Origin: Undibacterium sp.
GTDB lineage: Bacteria > Pseudomonadota > Gammaproteobacteria > Burkholderiales > Burkholderiaceae_D
Assembly (NCBI GenBank): GCA_030645915.1
Contig: JAUSNO010000005.1
Coordinates: 1-64,000, forward strand
Length of the DNA stretch: 64,000 bases
Reading direction: 5' to 3'
Below the pieces are notes generated by a model. That model worked only from the letters and a program-made list of their open reading frames with translations, searched no databases and had not been told where the DNA came from. Positions within the stretch are counted from its first letter, which is position 1; each line of letters starts with the position of its first letter. The position numbers were made by a program, and so were the translations under genes. Shown piece after piece: positions 9,892 through 57,439 of the stretch.

Positions 9892-12525
9892 ATGTCAGAG
9901 CCAGAAAATAAACACACGCCGATGATGCAGCAGTATCTGCGTATCAAAGCAGATCATCCCAACACCTTGGTGTTTTATCGAATGGGTGATTTTTACGAAC
10001 TATTTTTTGATGATGCAGAAAAAGTCTCCAGACTTCTTGGCATCACTCTGACACAACGCGGTATGTCCAACGGCGCGCCGATTAAAATGGCAGGTATTCC
10101 GTTTCATTCGCTTGAGCCATATCTCGCCAAACTGGTGAAGGTTGGGGAATCCGCTGCGATATGCGAGCAAATAGGTGATCCGGCAACGAGTAAAGGGCCA
10201 GTTGAACGCAAAGTCATGCGCGTGATTACACCAGGGACACTTACTGATACAGATCTGTTGCCCGCCAAATCAGAGCGTCCTCTACTATCGGTTTGCATGC
10301 TGCAACAACGCAAGACAATCACAGTTGGTCTGGCTTGGTTATCGCTCGCCAGTGGCGCGCTCAAACTCATGGAGTTCATCACTGATGAAAAGTCCTTGGG
10401 TAACCGTTTATTGCAAGAATTGGAAAGAATCTCGCCGGCAGAAGTTTTGCTCTCTGCCGGAACCCTTTTGCTTGATCAACATCAAGCAGCACTACCAGGG
10501 AAATTTTCAGAGGTCCCGGACTGGCACTTCGACCTTAAGCAAGGACAAAAGACGCTGCAAGACCAGATGGCGACAACATCGCTAACTGGTTTTGGTGTAG
10601 AAAATTTAAGCTCTGCTTTAGGCGCAGCGGGTGCTTTACTGCGTTATGCCGAGACGACGCAAGGTCGCGGCTTAAAACACGTGAACAGCTTGACGGTTGA
10701 ATCGGAAAATGAGTTCATCGGTCTTGATACTGCAACACGGCGAAATTTAGAACTAACAGAAACCTTGCGCGGACAAGAATCCCCTACGCTCTTTTCTTTA
10801 CTCGACAACTGCCGCACTGCGATGGGTTCGCGCCTGCTGCGCCATTGGCTACATCACGCAAGACGCGATCAGAATATCGCTCGTGCGCGCCACAATGCCA
10901 TTAAAGCGTTGATTCAGGCTGACTCAACCGCTGGGCTATCCACAACCTTGACTGCGGTACCTGACATAGAGCGCATCACGACCCGCATTGCGCTTCAGTC
11001 TGCCCGACCAAGGGACTTGGCTGGTTTGCGCGATGGTTTGCAGCATCTGCCAACCGTGCGTACCTATGTCGCCATGTGCGTAGAAGACAGCCACACCAGC
11101 TTACTTACTCAAATATTAACTGACTTGGCAACGCCTGTGGAATGCCTGGATTTGCTCGATCGCAGTTTGATGCAACAACCTGCGACCATGGTCCGTGATG
11201 GCGGAGTAATCGCGACTGGTTTCGATGCCGAGCTGGACGAACTGCGTGCACTATCAGAAAATGCTGGCCAGTTTTTGATCGATCTGGAAACCTCGGAACG
11301 GGCGCGAACGGGCATTGCCAATCTGCGGGTTGAATACAATAAAGTACATGGTTTTTATATCGAGGTAACCAACGGACAAACGGACAAAGTGCCGGACAAT
11401 TACCGTCGCCGCCAAACCTTGAAAAATGCCGAACGCTATATTACGCCGGAGCTTAAAGCCTTCGAAGATAAGGCATTGTCTGCACAAGAACGCTCACTTG
11501 TACGAGAGAAAGTCCTCTATGAAAAAGTGTTACTCGATTTGCTGCCGCATATCAGCACCTTGCAGGCAATAGCACACGCCATCGCGCAAATCGATACGCT
11601 GGTAAGTCTGGCCAATCACGCCACAAAAAACAATTGGTGCGCGCCACAGTTAATTGAGGAACCGGTGCTCAACATACAGCAAGGCCGCCATCCGGTCGTA
11701 GAGAATCAGATAGAACGTTTTATTGCCAACGATTGCCAGCTAAGCAATGATCGTAAATTATTATTGATTACTGGCCCCAACATGGGTGGTAAATCCACTT
11801 TTATGCGCCAGGTTGCCTTGATTACCCTTCTGGCTTATGTAGGCAGCTATGTCCCTGCAGCGCAAGCCACTATCGGCCCGATTGACCGCATATTTACGCG
11901 CATAGGTGCGGCCGATGATCTGGCTGGCGGCCGCTCTACCTTCATGGTAGAGATGACAGAGTCAGCTGCGATTCTTAATGGCGCAACGGAGCAATCATTG
12001 GTACTGATGGATGAAGTCGGACGCGGCACCTCAACCTTCGACGGCTTGGCGCTGGCATGGGCGATTGCCCGTCATCTGATTCAGTCGTCAAAAAGTTACA
12101 CCCTGTTTGCGACACATTATTTTGAACTGACGCAATTACCAGACCTGCATCCTAGTGCAGAGAATGTACATCTCTCGGCCATTGAACATAAAGAAAAAAT
12201 TGTGTTTTTACACGCGGTACAAGCCGGACCAGCTTCACAAAGCTATGGTTTGCAAGTAGCGCAATTGGCTGGCATACCGCAGGCGGTAATACGCTCAGCC
12301 AGAAAACATCTGGCTGAACTGGAAACACACTCGCTGCAAACAACGCCGCAGTTTGATTTATTTTCAAACAGCATCAGCACTCCGACTTCCGACGAGCAGA
12401 TAACCGAAGTCAATCCAGATACGCCATTGATGGATGCAATGGATGCGCTAGATCCAGATTCGCTCACACCAAGAGAAGCCCTGGAAGCGCTGTATCAGTT
12501 GAAAAAAATCGCAGAGTCCTTATAG
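9892..12525 (+). CDS. mutS: DNA mismatch repair protein MutS
   Basis: Cytoplasmic ATPase of 877 residues that finds mispaired bases and starts mismatch repair with MutL. The N-terminal mismatch-reading domain contains the Phe-X-Glu motif ([11 protein letters not shown], about 27-37). The connector, lever and clamp domains follow. The C-terminal ABC-type ATPase has Walker [10 protein letters not shown], the Walker B region [16 protein letters not shown] and an FATHY segment. The extreme C-terminus ([14 protein letters not shown]) matches the helical tetramerisation element. Length is normal. The gene stands alone; neither mutL nor recA is in the window. A palindromic repeat lies just downstream in place of an obvious terminator. 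Confidence 0.98.
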
Positions 12526-12554
12526 CGCGATCAAATGCAACAATCTTTAAATAA

Positions 12555-12636
12555 GCATGCCCCAGAACGCAATCCCCATGCGCTTCTTCAGCCTATCGGC
12601 TCTGAGAACCGCATGGGGATTGCGCTACTGGCATGC
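12555..12636. repeat. Dispersed palindromic repeat, copy A
   Basis: The core arms GCAATCCCCATGCG and CGCATGGGGATTGC are perfect inverted copies around a loop containing CTTCTTCAGCCTATCGGC. Weaker outer arms (GCATGCC/GGCATGC) extend it. It sits 30 bases after the mutS stop. The same core recurs near 23.9, 35.9 and 56.0 kb, so this is a family of interspersed palindromes. There is no U-run, so a simple terminator role is doubtful. Confidence 0.85.
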
Positions 12637-12696
12637 CACTAATTGAGATTTGCATGCTCAAGAGTCATCAGATTGAATTTTCTTTAGTCGCAACGA

Positions 12697-12727
12697 CAAA
12701 AAAAGCAGCACCGAAGTGCTGCTTTTC
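12697..12727 (-). terminator. Rho-independent terminator of slyD
   Basis: AGCAGCAC and GTGCTGCT form a perfect 8-bp stem with a CGAA/TTCG tetraloop. On the minus strand the stem is followed by a run of T, 14 bases after the slyD stop. Confidence 0.9.
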
Positions 12728-12740
12728 TAATTTGTCACTA

Positions 12741-13280
12741 TTAATGAATCGGATGGCTGCGGTATTCATTCCCCGCATCATCCTCATCATCTTCGTCGTC
12801 ATGGTGGCCATGCGCACCGTGAACGTGACCGTGAGCGATTTCTTCATCGGTAGCTTCACGAACATCAGCAACGTTCAGAGTAAAGCGCAAAGCCATTCCT
12901 GCCAAGGGATGATTGCCATCCAGCACAACTTTATCGTCCGCGATATCGGTCACGGTAAAAATCAACGCGTCGCCATCGCCATCTCCCTCTGGCGTTCCTT
13001 CAAATTGCATGCCGACTTCAAGTGGTGTCGGTAAGTTTTTACGCTCTTCAACCTTGACCAGATCGGCATCGTATTCACCAAATGCATCTTCCGGCTCTAC
13101 CTGTATCGTGGTATCGAAACCAGCCACTTTTCCTTCAAGTGCCTCTTCGATTTTTGGCAAAGTGTTTTCGTATCCACCGTGCAAATACACCATCGGCTCC
13201 TGGCCGTCTTCAATCAGCGTATCCTGTGCATCTGACAGTTTATAATGCACAGTAACAACCGTATTTTTGGCAATCTTCAT
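12741..13280 (-). CDS. slyD: FKBP-type peptidyl-prolyl isomerase, SlyD-like
   Basis: Cytoplasmic prolyl isomerase and chaperone of 179 residues, in its family also a nickel/metal-binding protein that assists hydrogenase and urease maturation. The N-terminal FKBP half (VTVHYKLSDAQDTLIEDG) is interrupted by the insert-in-flap domain (about 70-125, including HPLAGMALRFTLNVADV). The C-terminal tail is rich in His and acidic residues (HGHVHGAHGHHDDEDDEDD), fitting metal binding. AAGGAC precedes the ATG, and a strong terminator follows. It is transcribed divergently from roxA. Confidence 0.94.
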   Translation of the reverse strand: MKIAKNTVVTVHYKLSDAQDTLIEDGQEPMVYLHGGYENTLPKIEEALEGKVAGFDTTIQVEPEDAFGEYDADLVKVEERKNLPTPLEVGMQFEGTPEGDGDGDALIFTVTDIADDKVVLDGNHPLAGMALRFTLNVADVREATDEEIAHGHVHGAHGHHDDEDDEDDAGNEYRSHPIH

Positions 13281-21364: not shown

Positions 21365-23659
21365 TTACAGCTTCATTTCCAGCTTAAGCGACCAGGTCGT
21401 GTAGGTTTTGGCAATGTTAGTTTGCGCATTATTGATGCCTCCTGTGGTAACCGTGCTGGCACTCCGTGCATCATCTGCCTGTAAATTATTGGCAGACAAA
21501 CGCAGTTGCAAAGCGGGGTTAAATTTCCATAAACCGTAGAGATCAATCTGGCGTTTTATCCCGGCAAAATTGATCTGAGTATCACTTGCTTGCGTCACGT
21601 AGGCGGGAGTCCAATTCACACTCCCGCCCAAGGTCAAAGGCAGTGTCTTTGGACGATAATCCAGCCCGATATTGGCAGTCTGGTCTGGCTGTTGATCCAA
21701 ACGGTTATTTGGCCCTGCAATATCATTCACACGCGACCAGAAATGACTGTAATTACTACGAAAATCGATAGCCGCTGCATCTGTAAAAAACTCTTGAAGC
21801 TGAAATTTCGCTTCCAACTCAATGCCGCGCGTCATCGCATGGCCAATATTGATCGGCGATGACACCCACCGCAGGCCGGTAGAAGTTATCACTTGCTCGG
21901 TACGCCGGCGGATCAAATCGTCAATACTACGGACAAATACATTGACACTCATGATCCCGGCGCGGGTCAGATAATGCTCGAAAGCGAGATCGATCCCTTT
22001 CGCCCTTTCTGGTTTTAAAAAGGGGTTACCGCTACGATCTGGCCTTGTTGGGCCGTTCAGTTGTGAGATCGATGGCAAGGCGATCAAATCGTTCAGCGCT
22101 GGAGCGCGATAGCTGCTGGTCAACCCCATTCTCACCTGATCTTTGCTCCCGTCTGGCAAGCGCCATACTGCATGCAAGATAGGGCTCCAGACCGCACTTG
22201 AATTATCGACAGCGCTGTCTGACGTCGTGCTGTCAGTGCGAATACCTTCCCAGCGCAAGCCGGCATAGGCAGACCATTGCGGATTAATATCAAACTCGTC
22301 TTGCACAAAAACAGCCATGCGACGTGTGCTGGCGTTGAGATTATCGCCAGAATCAGAAAATTGCGGCACGCCATTATCAAGAGAAATGCGGGTCTGGCTA
22401 CGAGATCCCTTTTCAATATCCAGGCCTGCCGCCAAGGTATGCATTTCCCCCAAGGGAACGGTATATTTACTTCCGACATTGACGCTGCTGTCACGCGTAT
22501 TATTGACGTCAGAAATAGTATCCTTAAGATTACCGCCAGCATCAAATTGAGTGCGCAATGACGAACTATCCATGCGCCCAAGACCGCCGCCAAACTTGAT
22601 ATTCAATTTTGCATTATTTGAAAATTTGCTTTGCCAGTTACCGAAGCCGCGGGCAAAATTGCTCTCTGAATTACCCGTTGAATTGGCGCTCGCATAGCGC
22701 GCCGTTGCACCAGGTGTTTGTACCAGCGAACTATTTGTGAGTGAATCGCTGCGTGAATTCATGATGAAGGGTTGCAGCATCAAGGTGTCGCCGTTCTCAA
22801 AACGGAAATTAAAACGCGGCGTGAAATGAATGCCACTGGTTTGGCGATTGGTTTCATCGTGCAGATCCTGCACGAAATTAAGCTGCCCTTGGCCGTCTCC
22901 ATCTTCAATGTGCGCGGCACTTTGATCATGCTGACGGTTGCGAAAAATTGATCCGCTCAAGGCGTAAGAAAGCGAACCGAACTGCCCCGGATAAGTCAAA
23001 GAAATAGTTGGCGCACTTCGGCCCTGCTCAAAGCTCTCGGACAACTTCAATTCAACATCTTTTTGCTTATAATCTTCACGCAAGACAATATTGATCGTTC
23101 CTGCAATCGCCTGGGTACTGTATTCAGCAACTGGCCCGCGCATGACTTCAATGCGCTCGACCTGATCCGGCGACAAAGAATCCATGGAAAAACCGCGTGG
23201 TGCACGCTCGCCATTGATCAAGATTTGTGTATAGCCACTGCCCATGCCGCGCATGCGGATATCGCCACCGCGGCCAGGTCGCCCGCCTATAGTGACACCT
23301 GGCAAACGTTTGAGAACATCGCCGATATTGGAGTCGCCATTTCTATCGAGCTCCTCCCGACCAAAGATCATTCTTGAAGCGGTGGACAGGCGACGCTCAT
23401 CGAGGTCATTTTGGCGACCGCCTTTAATCGTCACTTTTTGCTCTTCACTTTTAGCAGGCGCGTCACTCGCTTTAGTTGCTAAAGGAGTTGCTATTTTTTT
23501 GGGATTTACCTTGTTTAATTCTTCGTTATTCCTAGTCTCATCTGTCGAATTTTTTGTCGCTGGTTCAATCTGGGCGAAAGCGCTGGAACACCTAAAAAAC
23601 GCGCCTGCAAAAATGAGAGGGATGAGAAAAATAGTTTTGTATCGAAGATGATTAGGCAT
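21365..23659 (-). CDS. TonB-dependent outer membrane receptor
   Basis: Beta-barrel receptor of 764 residues for active uptake of a siderophore, cobalamin or other large ligand. A signal peptide ends near SSAFAQ. The linker then contains VTIKGG, a possible TonB box. The plug domain (about 85-195) has GDVLKRLPGVTIGGR, RMRGMGSGYTQILINGE and VERIEVMRGPVAEYSTQAIAG. The rest alternates strands of a 22-strand barrel and ends WSLKLEMKL, without the usual terminal aromatic. I chose the ATG giving MPNHLRYKTIF over a GTG 69 bases upstream. No transport or regulator genes adjoin it, so the ligand cannot be inferred. Confidence 0.9.
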   Translation of the reverse strand: MPNHLRYKTIFLIPLIFAGAFFRCSSAFAQIEPATKNSTDETRNNEELNKVNPKKIATPLATKASDAPAKSEEQKVTIKGGRQNDLDERRLSTASRMIFGREELDRNGDSNIGDVLKRLPGVTIGGRPGRGGDIRMRGMGSGYTQILINGERAPRGFSMDSLSPDQVERIEVMRGPVAEYSTQAIAGTINIVLREDYKQKDVELKLSESFEQGRSAPTISLTYPGQFGSLSYALSGSIFRNRQHDQSAAHIEDGDGQGQLNFVQDLHDETNRQTSGIHFTPRFNFRFENGDTLMLQPFIMNSRSDSLTNSSLVQTPGATARYASANSTGNSESNFARGFGNWQSKFSNNAKLNIKFGGGLGRMDSSSLRTQFDAGGNLKDTISDVNNTRDSSVNVGSKYTVPLGEMHTLAAGLDIEKGSRSQTRISLDNGVPQFSDSGDNLNASTRRMAVFVQDEFDINPQWSAYAGLRWEGIRTDSTTSDSAVDNSSAVWSPILHAVWRLPDGSKDQVRMGLTSSYRAPALNDLIALPSISQLNGPTRPDRSGNPFLKPERAKGIDLAFEHYLTRAGIMSVNVFVRSIDDLIRRRTEQVITSTGLRWVSSPINIGHAMTRGIELEAKFQLQEFFTDAAAIDFRSNYSHFWSRVNDIAGPNNRLDQQPDQTANIGLDYRPKTLPLTLGGSVNWTPAYVTQASDTQINFAGIKRQIDLYGLWKFNPALQLRLSANNLQADDARSASTVTTGGINNAQTNIAKTYTTWSLKLEMKL

Positions 23660-23853
23660 GGCTAGGATGGCAGGTGAAATTATTGGATTGGCATGCGCTG
23701 GTGCAAAGCAGTACAAATCAGTGAACACATTGTATTTTCAAAGCCCATTATTAATCTAGCGAATCGGCCCATAGATTTGTATTGAAATGAAACAAACACC
23801 TGCGCGGTGTTACTTAGCGATACGCCACTCTCATAACCGCGATAATGCCCATG

Positions 23854-23924
23854 CCTACCACGCACTATCCATGCGCTTCTTCAGCCTGTTCGGCCTGCAA
23901 GGCGCATGGATAATGCGTGGTAGG
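23854..23924. repeat. Dispersed palindromic repeat, copy B
   Basis: Two 23-base arms match with one mismatch: CCTACCACGCACTATCCATG plus CGC on the left and its inverse on the right. The loop CTTCTTCAGCCTGTTCGGCCTGCAA is nearly the same as in copy A. Compared with copy A the arms differ (TATCC in place of ATCCC) and both arms changed together, so pairing is kept. Confidence 0.88.
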
Positions 23925-23990
23925 CCTGCCTGTTTTTAATTTCCCAAGATTCCCTTGAACGGCTCTTGTACGATGCATTTGCAGCGCGCA

Positions 23991-24034
23991 AATAAAAAGA
24001 CCTGATGCGACTCAACGCAGCAGGCCTTTATTTT
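23991..24034 (-). terminator. Rho-independent terminator of purF
   Basis: On the minus strand AAAGGCCTG pairs with CAGGTCTTT (one G-U pair) and is followed by TTTATTT, 12 bases or so after the purF stop. Confidence 0.8.
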
Positions 24035-24045
24035 TAATTTGAAAT

Positions 24046-25566
24046 TTAGTAAGCGCTGTCAGCCAAATTCAGATTAAGTTGCGAACGCATCAAATCTTCA
24101 GAATCTGCGCGTGGATTATTTCTTGCCGCTTCAAGTTTATCCAGATAACCGGAGCTCACATCGCCGGTGATGTAATAGCCATCGAAGCACGACGCTTCTA
24201 TGCTCTGCAGAAGCGGATTCACATCCGAGATGGAGCGCTTCATCGCGGCGACATCTTGGTACACCAAGGCATCGGCGGTAATCTCGCGACAGACTTCTTC
24301 TTCACTGCGACCGTAGGCGATCAATTCGCTGCGGGTTGGCATGTCGATGCCGTACACGTTAGGAAATTGCACCGGTGGTGCGGCGGACGCGAAAATCACG
24401 CGGCGGGCGCCGGATTCGCGCGCCATCTGAACGATCTCACGGCTAGTGGTGCCACGCACGATAGAATCATCGACCAGCAATACACTCTTGCCCTTAAATT
24501 CAGAACCTATCGCATTGAGTTTCTGGCGTACCGACTTACGGCGAATCGCTTGACCTGGCATCATGAAGGTACGACCTATGTAACGGTTTTTGATAAAACC
24601 TTCACGGTAATCGAGGTTCAGCATGGACGCCAATTCCATCGCCGATGGCCGGGATGAATCAGGAATAGGCATGACGACATCAATCTCACCATCACGGAAT
24701 TGATTGCGTACTTTTTCTGCCAGATATTGCCCCATCTTGAGGCGCGTCAGATACACCGAGGCGCCATCGATAATGGAATCAGGACGTGCCAGATACACGT
24801 ACTCAAACGCGCATGGATTTAACGTCGGGTTTTCGGCGCACTGCTCGTTGTACATTTTGCCGTCAAGATCAATGAAGATGGCTTCACCTGGCGCCACATC
24901 GCGTTCAAATTTAAATCCTAAACCTTCGAGCGCAACGGACTCGCTGGCGATCATGTATTCCACGCCCTTGTCGGTATGCGAAATACCAAGGCACAAGGGA
25001 CGAATACCGTAAGGATCGCGAAAAGCAAGCAAGCCGTAACCGGCGATCTGCGCCACAACGGCGTAGGAGCCGCGTACACGCCGATGTAGCATCGCTACCG
25101 CGCGGAACATCGCTGCTGGATCAAGCGAGTAACCGCTGATCACTTCCTGAATCTGATGCGCCAGAATATTGAGCAGGACTTCGGAATCTGAATCGGTATT
25201 GAGATGGCGGAAATCGTTTTTAAACAATTCCACTTTCAATTCGGCGGCATTGGTCAGATTGCCGTTATGCGCCAAGGTGATACCGAAAGGTGCATTGACA
25301 TAAAACGGCTGCGCCTCTTCTTCACTGGTAGAGCCTGCGGTGGGATAACGGACCTGACCGATACCGATATTGCCTGGCAAAGAACGCATATTACGGGTGC
25401 GGAACACGTCGCGCACCAGACCATTTGCCTTGTGCATGGCAAATTTATTGCCGTGACTGGTTGCGATACCGGCAGCATCCTGACCACGATGCTGCAACAG
25501 CAGCAAAGCATCATAGAGCAACTGGTTTACGGGACTATTTGAAACTACGCCAACGATGCCACACAT
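24046..25566 (-). CDS. purF: Amidophosphoribosyltransferase
   Basis: First committed enzyme of purine synthesis, transferring the glutamine amide to PRPP. The 506-residue protein begins MCGIVGVVS, so removal of Met exposes the catalytic N-terminal Cys of the glutaminase domain (1-230). The C-terminal phosphoribosyltransferase domain carries the PRPP loop VLLVDDSIVRGTTSREI. No propeptide or iron-sulphur cysteine cluster of the Bacillus type is evident, matching the E. coli-like class. It lies 33 bases downstream of cvpA, as in E. coli (cvpA-purF), and a hairpin terminator follows. Confidence 0.98.
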   Translation of the reverse strand: MCGIVGVVSNSPVNQLLYDALLLLQHRGQDAAGIATSHGNKFAMHKANGLVRDVFRTRNMRSLPGNIGIGQVRYPTAGSTSEEEAQPFYVNAPFGITLAHNGNLTNAAELKVELFKNDFRHLNTDSDSEVLLNILAHQIQEVISGYSLDPAAMFRAVAMLHRRVRGSYAVVAQIAGYGLLAFRDPYGIRPLCLGISHTDKGVEYMIASESVALEGLGFKFERDVAPGEAIFIDLDGKMYNEQCAENPTLNPCAFEYVYLARPDSIIDGASVYLTRLKMGQYLAEKVRNQFRDGEIDVVMPIPDSSRPSAMELASMLNLDYREGFIKNRYIGRTFMMPGQAIRRKSVRQKLNAIGSEFKGKSVLLVDDSIVRGTTSREIVQMARESGARRVIFASAAPPVQFPNVYGIDMPTRSELIAYGRSEEEVCREITADALVYQDVAAMKRSISDVNPLLQSIEASCFDGYYITGDVSSGYLDKLEAARNNPRADSEDLMRSQLNLNLADSAY

Positions 25567-35858: not shown

Positions 35859-36672
<814 letters not shown>

Positions 36673-36673
<1 letters not shown>

Positions 36674-52597: not shown

Positions 52598-54649
52598 TCA
52601 TGAAAGCGTAAAGTGAAAATCTTTTTTTAGCATCTCAGAAAATTTATCTGCGTCGATCGGCCTTGAGAAAAGATAGCCCTGCACTTCGTCGCAACCGGCC
52701 TGTTTTAAAAAATCAAATTGCTCGCGGCTCTCTACACCCTCAGCGATCACCTTATGCCTGAGCTGTTTTGCCATACTGATTATCGCGCTGGCGATTGCAC
52801 AATCATTGGTATCTTGAGGAATACCTTGAATGAACGAACGATCAATTTTCAGAGTGGCAATTGGAAATCGCTTTAAATAGGAAAGGCTTGAATAGCCAGT
52901 ACCAAAATCATCCAGCGCAAGCGTTACGCCAAATCCCGTAATTTCATCCATGATACCTATGACACCCTCCGCACTGTGCATGAGCATACTTTCAGTTATT
53001 TCTAACTCTAGCCAACAAGCGGGAATCTGATGAAAAGCCAGCGCTCGACGAATGCGCTCTGGCAGCGCGGAAGTAAATTCTTTAGCGGAGATATTTACGG
53101 CAATACGAAAAGCGGGAACGCCACTCTCTTGCCACATTCTAGCTTGCGCACAAGTCGTTTCCAACACCCAGTCATCGATATGCAAAATAAGGCCAGTCTC
53201 TTCAGCAACCGGAATAAATTCAGTGGGTGAAATAGTGCCTTTTTTCGGATGAGTCCATCGGATCAACGCTTCAGCACCAATTATCTTGCCAGATTTCATA
53301 TCAATTTTGGGTTGATACTGCAGGAAAAATTCTTCGTGATGTAAGGCGCGACGTAAGCCAGACTCAAGATACAAGCGACCCGCAATCGTCCGATTCATTT
53401 CCTGATTGTAGAAGGCGTAGCTGCCGCTTGATCGCTCTACTTCGCGCTTGGCTTTGCACATGGCGATATCAGCTTTTTGCAGCAGTTGATCGGCGTCTAT
53501 GCCATCTTGAGGATAGACACTGACGCCAATGCTTGCACCAATGCGCAATTCATGGCCGTCAATTGAAAAAGCGAGATCCAAGGTAGAAAGTAACTTTTGA
53601 GCCACTAATCCGGCATGAAAATCTTGATTGATTCCCAGTAAACCGATGGCAAACTCATCACTGCCCAGCCTGGCGATGACATCGTTATCTCTCAACGCAA
53701 GTCTAAATCGCTCTGCAACCTGCTTTAAGAGCTTGTCTCCGATCTGGTGGCCGAGTGTATCGTTGATGGGTTTGAAACGATTCAAATCGATAAATAATAA
53801 AGAACAAATCGTATTATCTCTTTGTGACTGCAGCAGCGCTTTATCGATCAATTTCTTAAATAAGGTCCGGTTTGGCAAGTCAGTCAATGGATCATAATAA
53901 GCTAGATGATTAATTCGCTCTTCGGCCAGCTTCCTATCGGTGATATCGCTTAAATAGCCGATCATGCCAATTTCTTGTGAACTTGCATCGCACAAAGGTG
54001 ACAGGCTCAAACTTGCCCAAAATATCTCGCCCGATTTTTTCCGGCGACGCACTTCCATTTCACGCCCACCCTGCTCAAGGAAAAGATCAAATTGACGTAA
54101 CTCGTCTACCGCATCGTTCTCATAAAGGAAAAGAATGTTTTGACCGATTGCCTCATTTGCAGTGTAACCAAACAAACTTTCAGCGCCTGCATTCCAACTC
54201 AGGATAAAACCTGCAAGATCCATGGTGATAACAGACTCGTGAATTTGATCCAGCACTTGCGATTGCAGTAGTTGCGCTTGTAGCGACTCATGCAGGCGAT
54301 GATCAAGCTTAGCCCGGGAAGAAAATAATTTCTCGGTCATCTCGGCAAGAAAAGCCAATTTTGTCAAATCTTCATCTGTGTAAGCATTTTTCTTACCCGA
54401 CAACATATAAAAGGTTTCAGGTGAAACAAACTGACGAACGGTATCGTGCTTTTCAGGCATGGATGCGTGTGCGAGAACGAAGGCGGCGTCTCCGGTACCC
54501 AAGACTGCTTTAGCGATACGGTTGAGTTCAGACTCCAAGGCGTCACCTTGCAAACGCAACACGGCGTCACCTAACTCGGCGCCCAATGCCAGATGATGCA
54601 CATCCTTTTTCACGCCATTAATCATATCCGTTAGTTGCATTGTATTCAC
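52598..54649 (-). CDS. PAS-GGDEF-EAL c-di-GMP signalling protein
   Basis: Cytoplasmic multidomain protein of 683 residues. A helical N-terminus of unknown type (about 1-115) leads to a PAS domain (about 130-240), a GGDEF domain (about 245-410) and an EAL domain (about 425-680). The GGDEF active-site motif reads GSDEF (329-333), so cyclase activity is uncertain. The EAL domain looks complete: EALIRW (460-465), [29 protein letters not shown] and KIDRSFIQ, so phosphodiesterase activity is likely. It overlaps the EAL-like/HDOD gene by four bases, and the two probably act together. Confidence 0.92.
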
Positions 54650-55851
54650 ATTTCCTGACAGATCTGATTGACCCAGCTATACGCTTTTATCTGGCACCGG
54701 TAATAAATATCAGTTTCGATATTAAACGTGCATAGGCTTGCCTTTAGTTCGCCATTGTCTTTCCGGTCTGCAAGCTCTACGATGTGCAATTGTTTACCCA
54801 GTTGCCCATTCTTTCGCACCAAGGCATCGAGCACGTCGTCCATCAAATTTAAAGGAAGTAAAATTTCCTCCAAGGGACTGCCGAACAATTTATCCAATAG
54901 AGAAAACATGCCGACCATGAATGCGCAGTCCTGCTGATCTTTATTACCTCCTTGTTCTTTACAAATTGCCTCCATGAAGCTGGCACGAAAAGCGGCTCTC
55001 AACATCAATGGGTTAAGTGCGGGTCCGTTTTCTCGCTGCCTCGCATAAAGCAACAATTGCAACCAGCGCTGCAACTGCCGTCTCCCAAGTAGGTTAATTG
55101 CCTGTCCAAAACTGGAGACCTTGACGGTCTGGGCAAAGGCAGCGGAACTCACCAGCTTAAACAACATGAAAGTTAAAGTCGTGTCCTGCTTAAACAACTC
55201 TTCCAACTCACGTGATTCAGCATCGTGCGAGACCAGCGCTAATAATTTCAACAGTCGTGTGCGTATGGTGGCATCGCTGGTTCTGTTGCTTTCTACAGGA
55301 GAAAAGGGATAGTCGCCCGAAAATAGTGTAAACCCAGCATCAGCAGCCTGACCCAACTGAACCCGAGTAGATATGTTTTTAGCCAGGTGCATCCCACCCG
55401 CGTAATTCGCTAGGCAAGATTGAGCAAATGACGGAATACCGGTGCCGCAGTCAAGCGAAACTGACTCAGCCTGTCCCGACAATGACGACATTTCTGAAGA
55501 AATATCATCGATCAAGATACGGAATCCTTGCGAGGCAAAGCGCTTCAATATGATCTTCGCGGCATCGTCGACACAGCCGGCATGATTCACGCAAAGAACC
55601 ACTTTTGAAGCATCGACTTTGACTTCAAGATCATCGGGCAACAAGTGAAGGTCAGGGATTTGAAGAAAAAAATCAACGGATGTCAGTTGATTAGCAAGTA
55701 TATTTTCGTGAATGCATTGCAATAAGAGCGATGTTTCTTGAGGTGAAGCATGCTCTAGACTAAACATTAACCCAGCGAGGTGCTGCATATCATTGGCTAC
55801 GGGCAGTAACGAACAAACTGGAATCATGTTCTCTCGGGAATTGGTCATCAT
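54646..55851 (-). CDS. HDOD-domain signalling protein with degenerate EAL-like region
   Basis: Protein of 401 residues in the YuxH style. The N-terminal half (about 20-190) resembles an EAL fold but has no EAL motif or metal ligands, so it is probably non-catalytic. The C-terminal HDOD domain (about 195-395) shows [46 protein letters not shown] and [18 protein letters not shown] proteins act as regulatory platforms in c-di-GMP and stress signalling. Its stop overlaps the start of the GGDEF/EAL gene by four bases, pointing to coupled translation. It is the first gene of the pair. Confidence 0.85.
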
Positions 55852-56179
55852 CGTTTGTTGTTAATTCATGCTCAATAGTAATTTTCACAAGGATACTAAA
55901 ATTAAAGTTTATCAATTGCAATCATATTTATTCAATTTCTTCAATTAAATTTTCTACTTTCTACTTATTGGCAAGATGAGGAACAAAATCTAAAAACCGA
56001 TGCGCCTAACACGCAGTCCCCATGCGGCTTTCAAGCACATCATGCCTGCAAGGCGCATGGGGATTGCGTCTTGAGCCACCCATATAAAAATTTTCAATTC
56101 GAAATGACACCTTGGCAGTTACAGCAAAATAATTCGCTTAAATCAGATAGTAAAAATATTATTTACATCGTCTCGGCGA
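55852..56179. other. Gap with a dispersed palindromic repeat
   Basis: A 328-base gap between the HDOD gene and hemW. It holds copy C of the dispersed palindrome; the rest is AT-rich and presumably carries the HDOD gene promoter on its left side. I see no gene or other element I could support. Confidence 0.5.
56011..56069. repeat. Dispersed palindromic repeat, copy C
   Basis: The arms ACGCAGTCCCCATGCG and CGCATGGGGATTGCGT match at 15 of 16 positions, the exception being a G-T pair that would be a G-U wobble in RNA. The loop ends in CATGCCTGCAAGG, as in copies B and D. It lies about 110 bases after the hemW stop on that gene's downstream side. Confidence 0.85.
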
Positions 56180-57439
56180 TTACTCATGATCGAGAAATAA
56201 CTGCTGCAAGTCATTTAAAAAGCGTCTCCCCAACAACGTCGGACGTATCATTTTATGATCTCTCTCAATCAATCCTTTTTGCTCTGCGATGAGCAGTGGT
56301 TTTTCTAAAGAATGAAGCAACAGACCGGTGCGGTCATGAAAAAGGTTCGTCTCAAAGCCATGAGTAAGCCGCAGGGTATTGAGCATGAATTCGAAACCAA
56401 TCTCATTGCGTGGAATCTCGTTAGACTCTTGAACTGCAGCACCGCGCAAACTTTCCTCCATGTAGGTCTTGGGTTGCTTGTAACGCGCCTGGCGTACGAT
56501 GCGGTGAGGAAAAGTGAGTTTTGAATGCGCTCCGGCACCGATACCTAAATAATCCCCGAAATTCCAGTAATTCAAATTATGCCTGGCCTCGCGACCCGGT
56601 TTGGCATACGCCGACACTTCATAGTTGACATATCCCGCTTGCAACATACGCGATTGAATCTCGTCCTGCATTTCTGCGCTCAGATCATCGTCGGGAATTA
56701 CTGGTGGGTATTTCGCAAAATAGGTATTGGGTTCCAGCGTCAAATGATACAAAGACAGATGCTGCGGCGCTAGCTGTATCGCAGTATCGACGTCTGACTG
56801 AGCCTGGGCCAAAGTTTGCCCCGGCAAGGCAAACATCAAATCAAGATTAATATTGTCAAAATATTTCTGCGCAATATCAACCGCCCTCCGCGCCTCATCG
56901 CCATCATGAATTCGCCCCAGCGCTTGCAGATGGTGCGAATTGAAACTTTGAATACCGATGGATAGGCGATTGATACCGCTGGCACGATAAGAACGAAACT
57001 TCTCCGTTTCGAACGTGCCAGGATTAGCCTCCATGGTGATTTCGGCAGCACCGTCAATAGGCAACAAGGTTCTAACATCGGACATCAAACGATCAAGCCC
57101 CGCTGCCGACATCAAACTCGGTGTGCCACCGCCGATGAAAATAGTGTAAATTTTGCGCCCCCATACCATCGGCAGCGCCGCCTCAAGATCCGCGCGCAAG
57201 GCCGCCAGATAAAGGTCTTCATCAAAACTTGTCTTTACCTCATGCGAATTAAAATCGCAATACGGGCACTTCCTGACACACCATGGAAAATGAATATATA
57301 AAGATAAAGGTGGCAATACAGAAAAGTTCAGACTTCCCGGTCTCAGAAATTGCTCGGCAACTTGCTGCGGGATGGATGACAGCGATGACTTATCGCTGCG
57401 CTCATCAGAAGAAGTCACCGGCTTAATCGGAATGATCAT
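56180..57439 (-). CDS. hemW: Radical SAM protein HemW
   Basis: Radical SAM protein of 419 residues, long annotated as oxygen-independent coproporphyrinogen oxidase but shown in relatives to be a haem chaperone. The iron-sulphur motif is CVRKCPYCDF (C54, C58, C61 followed by D62-F63), the HemW pattern that lacks the fourth Cys of HemN. GGGTPSLMS, MEANPGTFE, GINRLSIGIQSFN and a C-terminal HemN_C region (LLGRRFLNDLQQLF) follow. A basic, low-complexity start (about 1-40) is longer than usual. Its stop-side neighbour is the dispersed repeat; upstream it overlaps rdgB by four bases. Confidence 0.93.
   Translation of the reverse strand: MIIPIKPVTSSDERSDKSSLSSIPQQVAEQFLRPGSLNFSVLPPLSLYIHFPWCVRKCPYCDFNSHEVKTSFDEDLYLAALRADLEAALPMVWGRKIYTIFIGGGTPSLMSAAGLDRLMSDVRTLLPIDGAAEITMEANPGTFETEKFRSYRASGINRLSIGIQSFNSHHLQALGRIHDGDEARRAVDIAQKYFDNINLDLMFALPGQTLAQAQSDVDTAIQLAPQHLSLYHLTLEPNTYFAKYPPVIPDDDLSAEMQDEIQSRMLQAGYVNYEVSAYAKPGREARHNLNYWNFGDYLGIGAGAHSKLTFPHRIVRQARYKQPKTYMEESLRGAAVQESNEIPRNEIGFEFMLNTLRLTHGFETNLFHDRTGLLLHSLEKPLLIAEQKGLIERDHKMIRPTLLGRRFLNDLQQLFLDHE

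Follow-up and report, generated by a model that had tools for sequence, protein, structure and literature searches.

A dispersed, near-perfect palindromic repeat of Undibacterium genomes compared with REPIN and ERIC elements

Palindromic repeats shape many bacterial genomes, and the best understood among them rely on RAYT enzymes. In the sections of the cited articles available to us, REPINs are described as REP doublets in which two inverted small dyads combine into one hairpin (PMC3116915, PMC8049555). REPs carry a GT(A/G)G head 5' of the palindrome (PMC2817692) and are known targets of insertion sequences (ISs), which enter the palindrome at one fixed point; the ISs named as doing so are members of IS3, IS110, IS4, IS256, and IS5 (PMC1525189). 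ERIC (or IRU), an intergenic repeat of 127 bp, is listed as a nonautonomous mobile repeat whose transcripts form long stem loops; it has 7-bp terminal repeats, a target duplication, and 5'-TA-3' termini (PMC2229807). The Correia or NEMIS element of Neisseria, an inverted-repeat element of 107 to 155 bp, has a target duplication and TA termini as well (PMC2229807).

The repeat family described here resembles REPINs in that it is intergenic, occurs in many copies, forms one hairpin from two inverted dyads, and has the doublet as its unit. In contrast to REPINs, no flanking RAYT was found, no singlets occurred in the Undibacterium loci examined (IS-interrupted copies aside), the loop is conserved rather than highly diverse, each arm contains a variable hexamer, and A/T tracts lie at both ends. 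No conserved tetranucleotide of the GT(A/G)G kind was seen outside the arms (columns of 128 copies, judged by eye). The repeat shares its approximate length and intergenic position with ERIC, but no target duplication was found; relation to ERIC in sequence was judged solely by the absence of Rfam matches. Like NEMIS, it is an inverted-repeat element of a betaproteobacterium and of comparable size, but it differs from NEMIS in its whole-length palindrome, its conserved loop, and again the lack of a detected duplication. ISs enter it at one fixed point, as they do REPs, although those found in this repeat have an IS30-like transposase whose Pfam matches fall under the curated cut-offs. A literature search found nothing naming such a repeat in Undibacterium, and the accessible part of PMC12306157 contains no mention of Undibacterium, Burkholderi-, Oxalobacter-, or RAYT. 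The family is new as far as these searches go; the kind of element is already known.

Four copies in the window and the anatomy of the repeat

A preliminary description of the window (the whole 64-kb stretch of DNA analyzed) had reported four copies of a dispersed palindrome. A covariance model built from these four copies (R1) recovered all of them, at 12555-12639, 23848-23932, 35913-35997, and 55999-56083, with E values of 1.2e-21 or better. A second model, R2, which includes the flanks, scored them at 84 to 105 bits, and with filters off the rest of the window reached at most 18 bits. The features are as follows (fold z, + strand RNA versus shuffles).

12536..12657 (core 12555-12639), + strand: copy A, full element with A/T flanks; R2 83.8 bits, R1 87.2 bits, fold z -9.4; convergent gap between ORF 9892-12525(+) and ORF 12741-13280(-)
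12568..12582, + strand: left inner arm of copy A, CGCAATCCCCATGCG, exact arm pattern
12610..12624, - strand: right inner arm of copy A, CGCAATCCCCATGCG, exact arm pattern
23830..23950 (core 23848-23932), + strand: copy B, full element; R2 105.3 bits, fold z -8.9; between same-strand genes, ORF 21365-23728(-) and ORF 24046-25566(-)
35895..36015 (core 35913-35997), + strand: copy C, full element with several arm mismatches; R2 85.1 bits, fold z -1.4; upstream of listed ORF 35978-36673(+), which has a doubtful TTG start
55981..56101 (core 55999-56083), + strand: copy D, full element; R2 96.0 bits, fold z -5.6; between same-strand genes, ORF 54646-55851(-) and ORF 56180-57439(-)

Copies A, B, and D fold as hairpins; the fold of copy C is poor and is equaled by 12 of 200 shuffles. 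Several details of the preliminary description needed correction. Exact matches to the core GCAATCCCCATGCG, claimed for all four copies, are confined to the two arms of A and the right arm of D; the left arm of D has one change, the right arm of C two, and B three per arm. The arm differences between A and B are indeed matched on both sides, except for one C.A mismatch inside B. Copy C was said to hold a G-U-compatible mismatch, but its inner arms contain one G.U and three true mismatches. The placement of every copy in an intergenic gap is right for A, B, and D; copy C lies upstream of a gene and overlaps the listed ORF by 20 nt, confined to the doubtful TTG start. The gap that holds copy B is also occupied in a relative, G006 (G006:C53:28766). 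Among Rfam models, two tRNAs alone reached gathering scores in the window, and the repeat had no match. Terminator-like hairpins were noticed by eye at 12698-12728 and 23994-24034, near copies A and B.

Across the source Undibacterium genome (G000), R1 gave 150 matches, which became 132 distinct places once strands were merged; these are at least 132, because 150 of 1992 first-look candidates were scored. A rough capture-recapture estimate, in which 36 of 62 exact pattern hits were already among the 132, puts the number of copies at ~227. The arm-plus-loop pattern with up to 3 mismatches gave 336 matches, both arms of a copy being counted where both fit, versus 3 with the reversed pattern. Exact matches outside the 132 places numbered 26, and of the 23 inspected, 19 matched R2 and 4 were interrupted by ISs. 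The analyses below use the 130 copies that were fetched (2 of 132 places were not), minus 2 in column counts and 8 with short flanks in flank and T-run tests.

The repeat unit is a near-perfect palindrome of ~120 bp. Reading inward, it consists of a tract rich in A (in T on the opposite side), GGCA-nGCC, a variable outer arm, CGCA-N6-ATGCG, SSTTTCCAGCC, and a 5-base center, followed by the mirror image. Its central part aligned almost without gaps in 128 of the 130 fetched copies, and a gapless alignment of 121 columns was obtained for 40. In the 128 copies, the C-G-C and G-C-G letters of both arms were 98 to 100% conserved, the fixed letters of the inner arms 90 to 100%, the loop letters AGCC and GGCCTG 77 to 98%, and the hexamer columns 49 to 95%, while columns beyond the A/T tracts were near base frequency. 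Arms were nearly always paired: at the source-genome loci examined, 7 of 211 arm hits had no partner, of which 2 were chance and 5 were records of the 4 IS-interrupted copies (one copy matched from both arms; L042 and L359 are the same copy). The unit of the repeat is the whole palindrome. Of 158 copies defined by regex, 12 (L100, L101, L109, L117, L123, L127, L365, L366, L369, L373, L374, and L377) have one to three additions of a 14-base unit, CGCACTAGGCGGAG, beside an inner arm, and L374 has it on both arms.

Matched arms and the relations among copies

Matched changes between arms exceeded chance, in line with the covariation anticipated in the preliminary description, though most copies are imperfect. 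In the source genome, the two inner hexamers were identical in 39 of 128 copies versus 12 expected, and unequal in the other 89. The covariation score (40 copies) was 0.192, compared to 0.159 for shuffled arms (0 of 500 shuffles reached 0.192) and 0.08 to 0.09 for a slid partner; paired cells showed a small excess (73.5% versus 71.5% shuffled; 40 copies). Exact hexamer matches were also found in 27 of 55 copies in G006, 16 of 34 in G024, and 2 of 13 in G022, with low-scoring copies omitted (5 of 39 in G024; 3 of 16 in G022). In G006 and G024, the left and right arms shared their commonest hexamer, TATCCC in the former and TATTCC in the latter. In G000, counted in a fixed frame that leaves a few copies off by one, the most frequent left hexamer was CTATCC, and among the right hexamers ATCCCC ranked first and CTATCC second. 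Arm consensus sequences thus differ by species, with both arms shifting together.

Sites common to G000 and G006 allowed individual arm changes to be followed (19 pairs, after 3 weak pairs of 22 were dropped; two of the 19 have unusually similar flanks, L312, which lies at the end of a contig and may be a chimeric join in a metagenome-assembled genome [MAG], and L318, which lies in a stretch 91% identical). The changed cells that are paired in G000 number 215; in G006, pairing is lost in 104 of them, present through a one-sided change in 53, and present through changes on both sides in 58. Arm matching is thus a trait of the family, but many individual copies resemble mosaics of arm types. Selection for RNA pairing, as first proposed, is possible but inseparable here from the copying of one arm onto the other, because only 39 of 128 copies have identical hexamers and broken pairs (104) outnumber those kept by two-sided change (58).

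The best pair of copies in the source genome was identical at 78 of 85 positions (nearest-neighbor median, 69), so nothing shows recent movement: no two sampled source-genome copies are recent duplicates, and no pair above 78/85 was available there for defining the ends. Similar pairs tend to lie close together, with 5 of 99 pairs under 30 kb reaching 72/85 versus 15 of 7282 others. In 12 close pairs of copies, the intervening genes, inspected by eye, were ordinary and different, none recurring, and two pairs had no called gene between them.

Between species, 22 of 55 sampled G006 copies projected within 900 bp of a G000 copy, and 33 had no partner; 22 is a minimum, because ~130 of the estimated 227 G000 copies were compared. 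Strong turnover between G000 and G006 was considered and lost weight, as the common sites are a minimum. In the 19 pairs, the core was 65% identical and the flank 29%. Unrelated copies within the source genome are ~66% alike, so that copies at common sites are about as different as unrelated ones. Either copies persist in place and homogenize within species, or the same gaps are refilled. Seven pairs at 85/85 proved to be the same places in G022 and G024, and among seven places aligned between these two genomes, no clean empty site was found. The G022 and G024 stretches (L249-L288) consist of blocks of 98 to 100% identity among blocks of ~65 to 90%, suggesting recent exchange of long tracts between the two species. 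In G024, another compound repeat of ~100 to 170 bp was seen by eye beside two copies (L275 near 9000; L282 near 19100).

Gene context and distribution

The intergenic bias noted in the window extends to the genome. A simple gene caller, for which the window served as training data, placed 123 of the 130 fetched copies in classified gaps, 3 inside gene calls, and 4 at edges. The gaps were convergent for 41 copies, tandem for 64, and divergent for 18, compared to 15, 41, and 24 among 80 other gaps of at least 100 bp at the same loci. Convergent gaps were in excess (P = 0.025 by count, 3e-7 by gap length), and divergent gaps were in deficit (P = 0.012 by count, 1e-8 by gap length). The median distance was 48.5 nt to the stop in convergent gaps versus 168.5 nt to the start in divergent gaps, and in tandem gaps 40 of 64 copies were nearer the upstream stop (P = 0.06). 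Copies sit between genes, with stops nearer than starts.

The preliminary description had set simple terminators aside because no U-run follows the copies. This holds for A but fails for B (TGTTTTTAATTT), C (TTGTTTTGATTTTT), and about half of the family, so the exclusion loses its basis. Runs of at least 4 T stood beside the copy on the right in 54 of 122 and on the left in 58 of 122, versus 4 and 6 in controls further out (P ~ 1e-15). By a criterion of 5 T in 7, 52 of 122 copies qualified on the plus side, 48 on the minus side, and 20 on both, with 16 and 15 in the control. Canonical terminators were found in 8 of 41 convergent gaps with the element versus 9 of 21 without (P = 0.07), and in 11 of 63 tandem gaps with the element versus 13 of 56 without. 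A terminator role is compatible with these context data, which fall short of proof; the terminator-like hairpins near copies A and B weigh against it.

Within the genus, 12 of 43 genomes matched at E 1e-6 and 31 had no match. With 83 places scored per genome, four genomes gave 83, 82, 82, and 78 matches, at or near this ceiling, five gave 3 to 40, and three gave 1. A family-level sample yielded matches in 3 of 116 genomes, confined to 1 of 44 genera. Infernal was run with its stricter filters in the genus and family surveys alike, which could therefore have missed weak relatives. The core pattern matched 11 genome stretches, 10 from Undibacterium and one from a MAG, and a search of plasmid and phage records with one copy as the query gave no match. 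Among the searches made, the repeat was found only in Undibacterium. A 17-base pattern matched 44 stretches of viral contigs, but viral occurrence was rejected, as R2 (E <= 0.01) matched none of the 44 versus all 11 genome loci; in L196, the R2 match lies beside the pattern place, not at it.

A tree based on a single gene and covering 30 of the 39 genomes that have this gene (G026 and G030 are absent from the tree) placed the four high-copy genomes on one side of a split with support of 0.995, together with G011, G049, G023, and five genomes without matches. On the opposite side were G029 (8 matches) and two one-match genomes. Because the tree is unrooted and has its midpoint among the carriers' side of the split, it does not prove that the carriers form one clade. 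We read the distribution as long vertical descent with losses.

Mobility, insertion sequences, and rival readings

The preliminary description had suggested copying by a REP-type mechanism with a linked RAYT transposase. The likeness to a REP-type dispersed palindrome is borne out by the many intergenic copies, the paired arms, and the fixed-point IS insertions; no support was found for the RAYT link. The source genome has three Y1_Tnp genes, and R1 matches flank none of them on both sides (~1.5 kb searched on each side): one, RAYT-like and frameshifted, had a single copy ~0.5 kb away on one side, and the other two had none. Of 12 Y1_Tnp loci of the genus examined, only L004 contained the exact arm pattern, and Y1_Tnp occurred in 29 of 30 genus genomes sampled, carriers or not. 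A search for target duplications (8400 offset and length tests on 122 of the 130 copies; best z, 3.5) gave no signal, although old copies could have lost it. Because no linked transposase, target duplication, or clean empty site was recovered, mobility itself is something we infer. At L004 (G000:C3; ~1170-1900), a different REP of the classic type, TAGGGCGGGTGCAACCCGC, forms an inverted doublet 5' of a frameshifted RAYT-like gene, and a variant of this REP lies 3' of the gene. This REP has 9 genome sites with up to 3 mismatches, versus 1 for a reversed control, including three doublets 107 bp apart.

We favor, at a probability of roughly one-half, a miniature, nonautonomous, REPIN- or ERIC-like palindrome that was spread in part of Undibacterium by a putative enzyme acting in trans and has been inherited mostly vertically. 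Copies would have spread by transposition through this enzyme and then descended vertically. Between transcription units, a long hairpin bordered at each end by an A/T tract may be harmless or useful, perhaps as a two-way terminator or 3'-end barrier, and copies would stay there. Part of the likeness between the arms might be maintained because, within the hairpin, one arm serves as the template for the other. The three findings that could have counted against the original proposal, namely, few copies, no covariation, and no intergenic bias, did not materialize.

Other readings explain parts of these data. A true REPIN family whose RAYT is distant from the copies or lost would account for the two inverted small dyads in one hairpin (PMC8049555, PMC3116915) and for the targeting by ISs (PMC1525189). 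The source genome does contain a 254-aa Y1_Tnp gene, and the RAYT-like relic with its own REP indicates that such systems reach it. Nevertheless, we consider such a family unlikely, given that flanking by copies on each side was found at none of the three Y1_Tnp genes (within ~1.5 kb), that exact arms occur at 1 of 12 Y1_Tnp loci in the genus (a test covering part of the other carriers' Y1_Tnp genes), that Y1_Tnp presence does not track the repeat, that column counts revealed no GT(A/G)G head, and that the loop is conserved, unlike the highly diverse REPIN spacers (PMC8049555, PMC3116915). Similarly doubtful is primarily functional DNA, that is, a selected bidirectional intrinsic terminator or insulator cassette spread by recombination and not by a transposase. 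The A/T tracts on both sides, the convergent-gap excess, and the proximity to stops (48.5 nt) rather than starts (168.5 nt) speak for it, as do the lack of intermediate, decayed copies in the window by R2 and the at least 22 of 55 G006 copies near a G000 copy despite saturated flanks (29% identical; 19 pairs). However, matches at E 1e-6 are absent from 31 of 43 genus genomes, divergent gaps hold 18 of the 123 classified copies, canonical terminators remain in some element-bearing gaps, the placement toward upstream stops in tandem gaps reached only P = 0.06 (40/64), and T-tracts on both sides were found in 20 of 122 copies by the stricter criterion.

A classical MITE derived from a DDE insertion sequence, such as the IS30-like elements at the loop, would fit the long inverted repeats, the ~120-bp length, and the many copies, but we regard this origin as very unlikely: the 8400 tests gave no direct-repeat signal (best z, 3.5), and the ends of the IS30-like elements differ from those of the repeat and lie inside it, at the loop center. 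Four copies are interrupted in the 5-base center by such elements, which have similar ends. One insertion is complete (L370, 1628-2680), encoding a 330-aa transposase with weak HTH_38 and rve matches below the curated Pfam cut-offs, and the other half of the palindrome follows behind it; the other three lie at contig starts (L359, L360, and L361) with one IS end each. The duplicated target can be taken as 3 or as 5 bases, according to the position assigned to the IS end.

We also note a decidedly conjectural possibility, that palindromes of this one-genus kind are long-lived, are homogenized in concert across arms and copies within species, spread with no dedicated transposase, and are retained as two-way transcription barriers at which IS30-like elements can insert safely. 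For paired changes, two old explanations exist, selection on RNA and copying through a DNA hairpin; a large family with matched arms and a species-specific consensus, but without the RAYT link in the tests made here, would help to tell them apart, and the exact-center IS insertions offer a system for studying target selection. At the start of contig C10 (L359) and the end of C13 (L362), a nearly identical left flank of ~60 bp occurs with and without the IS30-like loop insertion, respectively, reflecting either a duplication or a mixed population.
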